A stretch of DNA of 64,000 nucleotides from Bacteroidota bacterium. GTDB lineage: Bacteria > Bacteroidota > Bacteroidia > Chitinophagales > Chitinophagaceae. The notes below the pieces were generated by a model. That model was not told the DNA's origin. It saw nothing but the letters and a program-made list of their open reading frames with translations, and ran no database searches. The stretch lies in contig JABDHF010000008.1 in assembly GCA_013285595.1 (NCBI GenBank), forward strand, positions 1 through 64,000. Direction: 5' to 3'. Below, piece by piece: positions 17,537 to 62,052 of the stretch. The position numbers and the translations under genes were made by a program. Each line of letters opens with the position of its first letter. The first letter of the stretch is position 1.

Positions 17537-17621
17537 TGCGGCAGAGGAGATTCGAACTCCCACGCCCATGACAGGCGCTACCACCTCAAAGTAGTGCGTC
17601 TACCAATTTCGCCACCGCCGC
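17537..17621 (-). tRNA. tRNA-Leu, anticodon GAG
   Basis: 85-nt class II tRNA. Acceptor arms GCGGCGG/CTGCCGC with one G-T pair, D-arm with AATTGGTAGACGC, anticodon stem CTACT/GGTAG around loop TTGAGGT (anticodon GAG, 17585-17587 on the plus strand), a variable arm (CGCCTGTCATGGGCG), and T-loop GTTCGAATC. Discriminator is A; CCA is not encoded. Decodes CUU/CUC. Confidence 0.97.
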
Positions 17622-18011: not shown

Positions 18012-18470
18012 GCATCAGAGCACATGAAAAATATACCCGACTCCTCCCCGAAAAGAGACCTGAAACCCGCTACAGGCAAGGGTTTTGAAAATATAAAAAC
18101 AAAGATAAAATTAATTTATGCAAAGAAACGATCCCTTGGCGAGCTTAAAAACTAGACACGAAAAATTGCGCCTCTTCGCGAAACTTTCTCATGGCATCAG
18201 AGCACATGAAAAATATACCCGACTCCTCCCCGAAAAACGACCTCAAAACCTTGCCCATACTGCGTTTGATTTTTCATATCATAAAAATATACTGCTATCA
18301 AAAAAGTAGAATCTGGGCACCATCGCTTACAACTGCTATGCAGTATCCCCCCTTGAGCATAGCATTGTGCGTTGGCGAAGGGGGGCAAGGGGGATGTTCT
18401 TCAAAATGAGGGTACCCGCTCCCCCAAAATCACACATAAACCCGCTACTGGTACCACTCTTATTTTTCCA
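18012..18470 (+). repeat. dispersed 182/192-bp repeat, two degenerate units
   Basis: A 43-bp perfect direct repeat starts at 18012 and 18194 (offset 182), each ending in ACTCCTCCCCGAAAA. The second unit continues through CTATCAAAAAAGTA, CCTTGAGCATAGC, TTGTGCGTTGGCGAAG and GATGTTCTTCAAAA, all in the same order as the reverse complement of the 192-bp tandem array at 27578-28211. Open frames here (about 17859-18155 and 18118-18409) fall inside the repeat and are not called as genes. The remaining spacer up to 18627 shows nothing else. Confidence 0.8.
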
Positions 18471-26695: not shown

Positions 26696-27217
26696 TTAGT
26701 TGTAGTTTACTGTTACCGGTACGCCTGTTGCGTTAGTGTAGGTGCCAGCAGTTTGTGCTGCGGCTACGTTAAGCGTTGCACCTACAGTAAGTGTTTGTGC
26801 GCCACCTGAGCTTAGAAGGCCTGTGCCTGATGGGCTGCTGGTAAAGTTAGTAACGTTCATGTTATGAGTAGATCCGTCTGTTATTACTACGGTACCAGGT
26901 AAGGTGATGATGTAAGAGTAGTTGCCCTGGCCTGTTACGTTAAAGCTTGCAGCAGTTACGGTACCTGTAGTAGCTGGAAGAGTAACACCACCTGCACCAC
27001 CTGTAGTACGAGTACCAGCCGGAGCAAGAACTGTAGTACCAGCCAGTGTAGCAGAAACGGCTACGTTACCGAAGTTCATATCTACTGTCTTAGAGATAGC
27101 GATAGGAGTGATGATTGTTGCAGAGGCAGAAGCTGTTGCTGTAGCCTGTGCGAAAGAAGCGTTAGCGCCTGTGATGATGATTGCTGCTGTTGCGAAGAAT
27201 TTTGCGATGTTTTTCAT
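26696..27217 (-). CDS. DUF4402 secreted protein, copy A
   Basis: 173 aa with signal peptide (cleavage after about NASFA), then a small, Thr/Gly/Ala-rich beta protein typical of DUF4402 (ITPIAISKTVDMNFGNVAV, GTVTAASFNVTGQGNYSY, TVGATLNVAAAQTAGTY). It differs from copy B (28498-29019) at only about five residues. Similarity continues about 85 bases upstream of the ATG, so the promoter was copied too. Role unknown; DUF4402 proteins are predicted extracellular or pilus-like beta domains. ATG at 27217. Unlike copy B it has no strong terminator. Confidence 0.9.
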   Translation of the reverse strand: MKNIAKFFATAAIIITGANASFAQATATASASATIITPIAISKTVDMNFGNVAVSATLAGTTVLAPAGTRTTGGAGGVTLPATTGTVTAASFNVTGQGNYSYIITLPGTVVITDGSTHNMNVTNFTSSPSGTGLLSSGGAQTLTVGATLNVAAAQTAGTYTNATGVPVTVNYN

Positions 27218-27577
27218 TTTGTTTGTTTTTAGAAGTTTGAGTGAGTTTGTTTATCGTTGTTTGATAGGTATATTACCAACGACGTGCCAAACTATTAACT
27301 AATTGATTTTCAATTGATTATTAACTTGGCACAATATCAATTATTCCATATCAAGGACATAGGTTCTATAAAATGGATTATTCCATAAAATGATCGCCAG
27401 GAAGAGGTGTGAGCTTAGGCTTTTGTGCTTTCATGAACTTGCCTATTTATAATTGCTATGCTATAAATATGTGATCCTTTCAGAATCATGACATGCTTAC
27501 ACATGGACTTTAGAACTATGTTCGCGCGTTGCAAACGCGCCGCCGGTGCATCCGCGAAACATTCGTGGACGAGAGAA
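27218..27577. other. spacer between DUF4402 copy A and the tandem repeat
   Basis: The first 85 bases are the duplicated upstream region shared with copy B, including TTTGGCACGTCGTTGG (minus strand). The rest shows no ORF I would support. Confidence 0.4.
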
Positions 27578-28211
27578 TTGGAAGGCTTGCCTAGCTTGGC
27601 TTTAAGGCCTGTTTTCGGGGAGGAGTAGGCCTTGTGTTGAAGAATATCCCTCTTGCCTCCTTCGCTAACGCACAAGGCTGTGCTCAAGGGGGAATGTTGT
27701 AGTGCATTTATAAGGTGTGGCACCCTGACCGTACTTTTTTGATAGCGATTCATTTTTCTTGTATGAAAGTTGGAAGGCTTGCCTAGCTTGATTTTAAGGC
27801 TTGTTTTCGGGGAGGAGTAGGCCTTGTTTTGAAGAATACCCTCCTTACTCTCTTCGCTAACGCACAAGGCTGTGCTCAAGAGGGAATGTTGTAGTGCATT
27901 TATAAGGTGTGGTACCCTGACCGTACTTTTTTGATAGCGATTCATTTTTCTTGTATGAAAGTTGGAAGGCTTGCCTAGCTTGATTTTAAGGCCTGTTTTC
28001 GGGGAGGAGTAGGCCTTGTTTTGAAGAATACCCCCCTTACTCTCTTCGCTAACGCACAAGGCTGTGCTCAAGAGGGAATGCTGTGGCGCATTTATAAGGT
28101 GCGGAGCACTGATCGTACTTTTTTGATGGTGGTTCATTTTTCTTGTATGAAAATTGGAAGGCTTGCCTAGTATGGTTTTGGGGCCTGTTTTCGGGGAGGA
28201 GGAGGCCATAT
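27578..28211. repeat. 192-bp tandem repeat array, 3.3 units
   Basis: TTGGAAGGC recurs at 27578, 27770, 27962 and 28154, exactly 192 bases apart, with near-identical units between. Each unit holds TTTTCGGGGAGGAGTAGGCC, TTCGCTAACGCACAAGGC, TGTGCTCAAG, GTACTTTTTTGAT and a CATTTTTCTTGTATGAAA end. The unit is homologous, in inverted orientation, to the repeat at 18194-18470. Because 192 is a multiple of three, an open frame runs through the array on the minus strand (27415-28209), but this follows from repetition and is not taken as a gene. Confidence 0.92.
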
Positions 28212-28430
28212 TTTTTTGTGCTATCGCGCTGTGAAAGACAGTGTATAGTTGCAGTGTGTGATATTTGAATCATGTAAACGAAATTTTATATAGTATCGCA
28301 TTAAGTATAAAGTTAGGGTGGATAAATGCGAGTGTTATCGTGTGTGAGCGATGTCGGGTTTCGGCACACCGTACGGCTTCTATTTTTTTGCAACAACTGA
28401 AAACCGATATTTGAGATTGCTCTAAAACAC
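28212..28430. other. spacer after the tandem repeat
   Basis: No ORF supported; contains ordinary AT-rich DNA up to the terminator at 28431. Confidence 0.35.
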
Positions 28431-28497: not shown

Positions 28498-29019
28498 TTA
28501 GTTGTAGTTAACTGTTACCGGTACACCTGTAGCGTTGGTGTAGGTACCGGCTGTTTGTGCTGCTGCTACGTTGAGGGTTGCACCTACAGTAAGTGTTTGA
28601 GCGCCGCCTGAGCTTAAAAGGCCGGTTCCTGATGGGCTGCTGGTAAAGTTGGTCACGTTCATGTTGTGTGAAGCGCCGTCTGTTATTGCTACGGTACCGG
28701 GTAATGTGATGATGTAAGAGTAGTTGCCCTGGCCTGTAACGTTAAAGCTTGCAGCAGTTACGGTACCTGTAGTAGCCGGCAGTGTAACACCACCTGCACC
28801 ACCTGTGGTACGAGTGCCAGCCGGAGCAAGAACTGTAGTACCAGCCAGTGTAGCCGAAACCGCTACGTTACCGAAGTTCATATCTACCGTTTTAGAGATG
28901 GCGATAGGAGTGATGATGGTAGCAGAGGCAGAAGCTGTTGCTGTAGCCTGGGCGAAAGATGCGTTAGTGCCAGTGATGATGATTGCTGCTGTTGCGAAGA
29001 ATTTTACGATGTTTTTCAT
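28498..29019 (-). CDS. DUF4402 secreted protein, copy B
   Basis: 173 aa from ATG 29019; the frame is open further upstream (to 29118), but that part lies in the conserved promoter region and is not protein-like. Signal peptide, then the same DUF4402 body as copy A with about five substitutions (for example NIVKFF for NIAKFF, TVAITDGASHN for TVVITDGSTHN). Cleanly terminated by the stem-loop at 28431. Two copies separated by a repeat array look like a segmental duplication that could be kept for dosage. Function unknown. Confidence 0.9.
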   Translation of the reverse strand: MKNIVKFFATAAIIITGTNASFAQATATASASATIITPIAISKTVDMNFGNVAVSATLAGTTVLAPAGTRTTGGAGGVTLPATTGTVTAASFNVTGQGNYSYIITLPGTVAITDGASHNMNVTNFTSSPSGTGLLSSGGAQTLTVGATLNVAAAQTAGTYTNATGVPVTVNYN

Positions 29020-61396: not shown

Positions 61397-62052
61397 TCTC
61401 CGCTCTGGTTTAACTCAGATTTTGCAGTTGAGTAAAATGTGACAGGTTGTCGTATTTTTTTACATCCTCGCCGAGTCTCCGCTTTTTCTGCGGGACTCGT
61501 CGCTACTCGCGTAGAGCATCCTACTAACCATAGCACTAGTCCATCCTGCTGTGTACCCACAAGTATTGTAGTCCAACATAATATGCCCCATAGGGGCTAC
61601 CGCTTTGTAGAAAATGATATCCTCCCCACATGTATGCCCCGTAGCGGGCTAACCAAATACACTAACAAGATATCTCCCTCGCATTCGAACCCCGTAACTT
61701 GCCCCGGAAAATAGCTGCCACCATGTCCCGGCAAAACCCATCCATAAGATCCATAGCACAGAAAAACATACCTCCTCCTCCCCAGAAACCAGCCTCAAAC
61801 CCTTTACAGGCAATGCTTTCAGTTTTCAAGGCAATTATTACCTACGTCTCGCCCGTGTTGGTGTTTTCACCAACACGGGCGCGCAAGACAGGCGCCATAA
61901 CTCATCAAACAAAACTAATGAAAAACAAGCTTCCTCCTCCCCCAAAATCGACCTCAAACCCACTACAGGCAAGGCTTTCCATTTTAGGGCCGAATATTAC
62001 CACCCAATAGCTCCCGCTCCGTTGGAGAGGGTCGGGGAGAGGTTTTTTTACC
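61397..62052. repeat. repeat-rich intergenic spacer
   Basis: No gene supported. Two GCCCC-type palindromes sit 51 bases apart (GCCCC-ATA-GGGGC at 61585-61597; a related GCCCC-GTA-GCGGGC from 61636). A perfect 14-bp-stem hairpin with TTTT loop fills 61850-61881. Two degenerate fragments of the dispersed repeat follow the pattern CCTCCTCC...CCTCAAACCC...TACAGGCAA (about 61766-61830 and 61932-61985). Open frames here (for example about 61439-62010) consist of repeat sequence. Confidence 0.7.

Follow-up and report, generated by a model that had tools for sequence, protein, structure and literature searches.

To our knowledge, repeats that are dispersed in bacterial genomes usually have no known reader. 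One of the closest described systems is that of the REP/BIME sequences and RAYT (TnpA_REP). The repeats are high-copy, species-specific and clustered in intergenic DNA; the cognate gene bears the repeat at its end, and its 3' end can be captured in arrays (PMC2817692). The 65-bp cores described here, from the genome of an uncultured Bacteroidota bacterium, are likewise species-specific, intergenic, present in high copy number and found at the end of a cognate gene. They differ from REP sequences in three respects. The cognate is an HTH protein of the terminase small-subunit (TerS) type instead of an IS200/IS605-like Y1 transposase; the REP repeat is a palindrome of 20-40 nt, whereas the core has no predicted consensus fold; and the cores are direct repeats that follow one another in spacing steps of about 11 bp.

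We know of terminase small subunits only in phage, satellite or gene-transfer packaging machines. The TerS proteins found here belong to the Sf6-type family, which places them close to the pac/TerS systems of headful phages (Sf6, P22, SPP1/SF6). The P22 pac lies within the terS gene (PMC9611059), as the core does here, and the SPP1/SF6 pac is described in PMC4737164 as AT runs interspersed with GC, suited to wrapping round TerS, a composition that the core has in common. Unlike in the phages, no phage genes were recognised by eye beside the TerS copies; there are many gene copies and well over a hundred sites in a bacterial genome, and the arrays are phased.

Two further comparisons can be made. 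The constant-length, variable-sequence tandem repeats of Bacillus (52 and 20-21 nt) conserve length over sequence and are species-specific, and a nucleoid role has been suggested for them in PMC8161180. The arrays described here have in contrast a conserved 65-bp core and variable spacers, with length steps of about 11 bp and an identified cognate gene. As with MITEs, gene-less copies have their ends in common with a gene-bearing form (the core at seven of eight loci, the tail at four of eight by model), but the gene is not a transposase.

Structure of the window array

The window denotes the whole stretch of DNA that was analysed, 64,000 nt in length (contig JABDHF010000008.1). A preliminary description had reported a 192-bp tandem array with a partial fourth unit and an undrifted period, placed between two nearly identical DUF4402 genes. 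Tandem Repeats Finder located the array at 27578-28214 (period 192, 3.3 copies, 92% matches, 0% indels, score 1048), and an ungapped repeat finder gave spacings of 192 and 192, which bears out both the array and its exact period. With respect to unit 27770-27961, the identity was 94% for the unit at 27578, 93% for the unit at 27962 and 85% for the partial fourth unit (28154-28214). Because the copies differ among themselves, a period created by simple assembly duplication is unlikely. When the 192-base unit was searched in the genome, 15 places were matched, so that its occurrence nowhere else, which had been considered earlier, is excluded. Alignment of these matches revealed a conserved stretch with variable DNA between the copies. 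The spacing of 192 is thus real at this locus, but it is one among several in the family, and what truly repeats is a core of 65 bp. The window has the following features:

27574..28215, + strand: window array, four cores, spacings 192/192/192 (repeat finders and core profile)
27574..27639, + strand: core 1, anchor (C of CGGGGAG) at 27616
27766..27831, + strand: core 2, anchor at 27808
27958..28023, + strand: core 3, anchor at 28000
28150..28215, + strand: core 4, anchor at 28192
28292..28340, + strand: tail-like stretch about 100 nt past the last anchor, weak (19.2 bits), end approximate
27415-28209, - strand: ORF across the window array, 264 aa, 64 residues per unit
26696..27217, - strand: DUF4402 copy A, neighbour outside the core element (PF14352, E 1.9e-26)
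28498..29019, - strand: DUF4402 copy B, neighbour, identified by 97% identity to copy A
18027..18467, - strand: second core array, three cores, spacings 193 and 182
61761..61985, - strand: third core array, two cores, spacing 159

The core family in the genome

The window comes from a draft genome with a completeness of 59.6%, whose 146 contigs add up to 2.93 Mb. A model of 24 cores that used sequence only gave at least 150 matches in it, the weakest with E 1.3e-6. An iterated profile search was then applied to 381 kb of fetched DNA, consisting of the window and 67 stretches of about 5 kb around core clusters (shorter at contig ends). It yielded 167 cores in 73 groups: 22 groups of one core, 21 of two, 19 of three, nine of four and two of five. 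No group was of mixed strand (0/73). Six of the single cores sit inside TerS genes, and several arrays lie at contig ends.

Relative to the C of CGGGGAG, the core covers approximately positions -42 to +23; its edges are sharp and its near-invariant blocks are GGxTTT, TTTT, GGGGAG and TTTT. The information content by codon phase was even (0.91, 0.97 and 0.95 bits in 160 array cores), and the best frame over the arrays (-1) contained 126 stops in 6587 codons. This indicates that the conservation is at the DNA level. No consensus pairs were predicted by RNAalifold in 24 cores, and the AA/TT periodicity within the core was weak (P 0.015). An AT-rich stretch was seen by eye before many first cores; it is absent before the main array of the window. 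The spacers differ along their length and many have short pieces in common, and several of them resemble repeats that we take to be common in Bacteroidota.

Three other assignments were tried and rejected. As to an RNA family, the only Rfam hit of the window at gathering score was a tRNA (17537-17621). As to a promoter, no clear preference of gene orientation was observed among the 73 groups, with ORFs taken from a simple script: converging genes surround 18 groups, co-directional genes 18 and 17, and diverging genes 11, and for nine no neighbour was called on one side. As to inverted repeats at the spacer ends, GCTACGGAA/TTCCGTAGC occurred at the start of 21 spacers and at the end of 25 (3 and 8 in end-swapped controls), and at both ends in only 11 of 94.

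No strong core (E 0.001) was found with the same model in 24 same-genus genomes or in 15 other genomes of the order, among the matches listed; the absence from related strains envisaged in the preliminary description therefore holds for those 24 genomes. Weak matches at E 0.01 were present in 7 of 34 other genomes of the genus, one or two in each (E 0.0017-0.0094), and 12 matches were counted in these seven at E 0.05 or better. They were mostly half-cores and were left out of the core counts. Part of them is accounted for by a palindrome, TGAAACCCTT..AAGGGTTTCA, which was seen in three loci of relatives (L173, L177 and L182) and resembles the left half of the core; it may represent a terminator or an ancestral version of the site. 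An exact 19-base core pattern matched once in GTDB contigs, in an Oscillospiraceae MAG (about two matches expected by our own estimate), and was not matched in viral contigs.

Core spacing and helical phase

The 94 core-to-core spacings gave R 0.66 at 11.2 bp, with classes near 102, 113, 126, 138, 147, 159, 169, 180, 192, 204 and 215. Since common ancestry of the spacers could mimic phasing, one spacing was taken per spacer family. Families were defined at 65% identity, a cut-off above the highest of 1500 shuffled pairs (0.64). The resulting 50 families gave R 0.64-0.66, and none of 3000 jittered sets was as high; the phasing outcome was the same at 70% identity (57 families). Looser grouping weakened the phasing, with P 0.006 at 60% (19 families) and P 0.10 at 55% (five families). 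Grouping by local similarity left 12 groups with R 0.72, which is within the 99.9% point of the null (0.81). When the 37 distinct spacing lengths were each counted once, R was 0.45 (P 0.001). Founder lengths may add to the phasing.

The fitted period was 11.16 bp (bootstrap 95% 10.96-11.32), or 11.26 if forced through zero offset, and a period scan from 2 to 40 bp had its top peak at 11.15. In-vivo helical repeats fitted from looping are given as 11.08 and 11.60 in PMC1762422. The period of 11.16 bp lies within this range and thus fits placement on the same helix face of supercoiled DNA. The distances to the next-but-one core showed a weaker phase (43 distances, R 0.41), and the core-to-tail distances were unphased (29 distances, R 0.22). 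Spacings in multiples of 3 were in excess (29 of the 50 families, P 0.0002), which the helical phase does not explain.

TerS genes that end in the core

Among the nine ORFs that overlap cores are six paralogues with the complement of the core at their end (L047, L054, L061, L062, L072 and L097). The core thus lies antisense in the 3' end of these genes, at the corresponding place in each. All five proteins tested matched PF20901, the Sf6-type terminase small subunit (E 6e-19 to 8e-22; 68.5-77.8 bits against a cut-off of 27), and the proteins also match phrog_1482. A profile of TerS matched solved structures of Sf6 gp1 over residues 3-82 (E 1e-6 to 1e-5). A monomer model of the protein was of low confidence (pLDDT 65.8, pTM 0.34), and a Foldseek search with it against the PDB gave no match at E 0.001 or better. 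No transposase catalytic domain was found in the TerS proteins, which matched PF20901 and weak HTH models only. The C-terminal parts of two proteins (P0001 and P0003) contain lysine- and alanine-rich stretches before an SSSPKT motif encoded by the core; they are reminiscent of histone H1-like tails.

The genome contains eight TerS loci, one of them frameshifted (contig C21) and one cut by the contig end (C7). The core was present in seven of the eight (E 5e-7 to 2e-10), the remaining one being the truncated locus of C7. A 48-bp tail motif was found after the last core in 26 of the 73 groups, at 66-154 nt. At three TerS loci the same motif stands upstream of the gene, at a distance of 589-632 nt from the core; it was detected upstream of TerS at four of the eight loci by model and is visible by eye at others. 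With the core at the 3' end of TerS and the tail at its 5' flank, arrays and genes have both ends in common.

PF20901 was found in none of 39 other genomes, and of the same 40 genomes one has both TerS and strong cores. Across the order, a profile of the five TerS proteins matched three other genomes of 396, with one distant match each. The nearest phage proteins (51 records) reach at most about 40% identity over the N-terminal half, and of 47 stretches of viral contigs that fitted a pattern for TerS relatives none was confirmed. Judged by eye, the neighbours of TerS at the eight loci resemble host genes. No partner TerL was seen beside them in this genome, 59.6% complete, and Terminase_6N was not found in the genome search for TerL. 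A TerL fragment (Terminase_3, PF04466, E 2e-14) was observed at L171 9732-10865 (- strand), at the end of contig C37; the gene next to it encodes 311 aa and has no family above cut-off. No multiplied orphan TerS genes or comparable repeat were recognised in the titles and abstract openings of the open-access articles searched.

TerS-like genes in further genomes

Following weak hits in one relative (G023), we came upon a further orphan gene, L183, whose 3' end resembles the core. Its product matched phrog_4151 (3e-22) and terminase small-subunit models at 2e-7 and weaker. The family was found in all 34 other genomes of the genus, with 1 to 14 matches each, and not in the genome of the window.

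In a second species (G010), each of the 11 fetched copies of a TerS-like gene of this family has three TGCGCAA motifs at its end, 11 and 92 bp apart (93 instead of 92 in one copy), and the protein scores above the Pfam threshold for Terminase_5 (26.6 against 20.3 bits). In all 10 comparisons of copies with L221, the similarity extended no further than the stop codon. The genome was sampled in 20 stretches of 20 kb placed away from the 14 listed gene copies. In these 400 kb, which hold no listed gene copy, GTGCGCAAAA was seen 20 times against 1.9 expected. Gene-end 12-mers were found 83 times against 1 for reversed k-mers, and conserved 5' coding 12-mers 25 times against 8. Same-strand TGCGCAA pairs peaked at 11, 92 and 103 bp, and 62 of the 147 motifs lay outside ORFs of at least 150 aa, in DNA that makes up 16% of the sample. 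Some of the dispersed motifs could be relics of gene ends.

A third species (G423), from which at least six TerS-like genes were fetched, showed no enrichment of GTGCGCAAAA (0 seen against 1.4 expected in 400 kb) and a mild excess of 3'-end 12-mers (42 against 13 in the control). The link between gene and motif was therefore repeated in one of the two further species sampled. Tandem repeats of other unit sequence were also observed near TerS-like genes: in G010 with units of about 125-130 bp (L217 3013-3308, L220 5008-5372 and L222 1-251), and in G423 just upstream of the gene with 3.5 copies of a 174-bp unit (L228 2889-3499). A long tandem repeat of 144-bp units in G010 (L237 18831-19999) looks coding and is unrelated to the core arrays.

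DUF4402 genes beside the array

The two genes that flank the window array are near-identical, as had been described: copy A is a PF14352 protein, with which copy B shares 97% identity along 173 aa (tblastn). Six DUF4402 matches were found at three array loci, two in the window, three at L084 (contig C51) and one at L077 (C42), and the order copy-array-copy is seen at two of them, the window and L084. The genes beside the arrays at L084 1-3826 and L077 2281-2799 are 96-100% identical to copy A of the window.

The phosphoesterase loci of 29 relatives were compared, several of which are cut by contig ends, and DUF4402 was present at none of them. In three relatives the phosphoesterase and the response regulator lie within 1.5 kb, with gaps of about 185, 377 and 824 bp against 2.8 kb here, and the array is missing as well. 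Since these outer neighbours stand close together there without DUF4402 or array, the block was probably gained in the lineage of the window. The array and DUF4402 may have been amplified together at the three loci, and the earlier suggestion that the array may have mediated, or resulted from, the duplication of the gene is partly supported. The duplication does not explain the array itself: the fetched DNA contains 73 core groups, of which this array is one, and only three of its 68 sources showed DUF4402.

Discussion

The explanation that we favour, with moderate confidence, is that the window array descends, without the gene, from an element that encodes an orphan TerS in its gene-bearing form, with the cores as putative pac-like TerS sites. 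It is suggested by the position of the core in the 3' end of TerS and by the match of the array tails to the 5' flank of TerS. The element would consist of a TerS-like gene with a site in its 3' end, together with arrays of the site that lack the gene, and from their sequence and place the cores are probably its pac-like binding sites.

Phage relatives of TerS form rings. By analogy, the TerS-like HTH protein would bind the cores as a pac-like site. Adjacent cores would lie on one face of the helix, so that one or several oligomers could bridge or wrap them into short loops, and the phase could be kept by selection for the complex or by units being gained and lost inside it. The HTH domains of phage TerS are reported to bind DNA weakly and with little sequence specificity in PMC4737164 and PMC9611059, which counts against a role as a strong operator.

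A repeat protein encoded by the array would account for the divisibility of 192 by 3, for the spacings of 29 of the 50 spacer families and for the open minus frame through the window array. This is nevertheless extremely unlikely, for no frame is open in the arrays overall, the 160 cores carry no codon-phase signal, and the 264-aa ORF has no Pfam match above cut-off. The probability of a CRISPR-like repeat-spacer array is practically negligible. Similar repeats with differing spacers on one strand per array do recall it, but the near-identical short repeats and uniform spacer length of CRISPR are not found in the core arrays: the spacers measure 12-180 nt and are found duplicated within arrays, and the cores diverge both between and within arrays. 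An origin and function of the array tied solely to the DUF4402 duplication is also very unlikely. Three loci do have DUF4402 copies beside an array, two of them in the order copy-array-copy, but the remaining core groups adjoin other genes, which contradicts this as a general account.

A doubtful but serious possibility is an ordinary non-autonomous dispersed repeat, MITE- or REP-like, moved by another enzyme, with TerS as a passenger and the spacings inherited from a few founder units. Such a repeat would be high in copy number, intergenic and restricted to the species, as the cores are. Homology of some spacers between loci (e.g. the 188-193 group), the phasing that is not significant with the loosest spacer groupings and the TerS proteins without a recognised catalytic domain also agree with it. 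However, a passenger gene does not account for the core at the corresponding place in the TerS genes. Moreover, G010 has the same link between gene and motif, with an unrelated motif and another TerS-like family, and 37 distinct lengths counted once each are still phased (P 0.001).

The TerS-derived element can be placed in a wider scheme, which we put forward as unlikely in its entirety. Phage TerS genes acquired by the genus would have become self-spreading "TerS islands", and each species would have its own multiplied gene, a site at the 3' end of this gene and scores of gene-less arrays. The ring would loop or wrap the arrays into a species-specific, chromatin-like network, or would mark the genome for gene-transfer particles, and the 11-bp quantisation would be the footprint of the complex.

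Sequence evidence from one species points to a cognate gene for a dispersed repeat, and so does that from a second species, in which the sequences are different. For terminase small subunits, an orphan, multiplied gene with cognate sites throughout the genome would represent a new fate. The pattern of the spacings reads as a record of DNA twist and same-face binding in an uncultured organism, and the old question of the role of long intergenic repeat arrays becomes directly testable.
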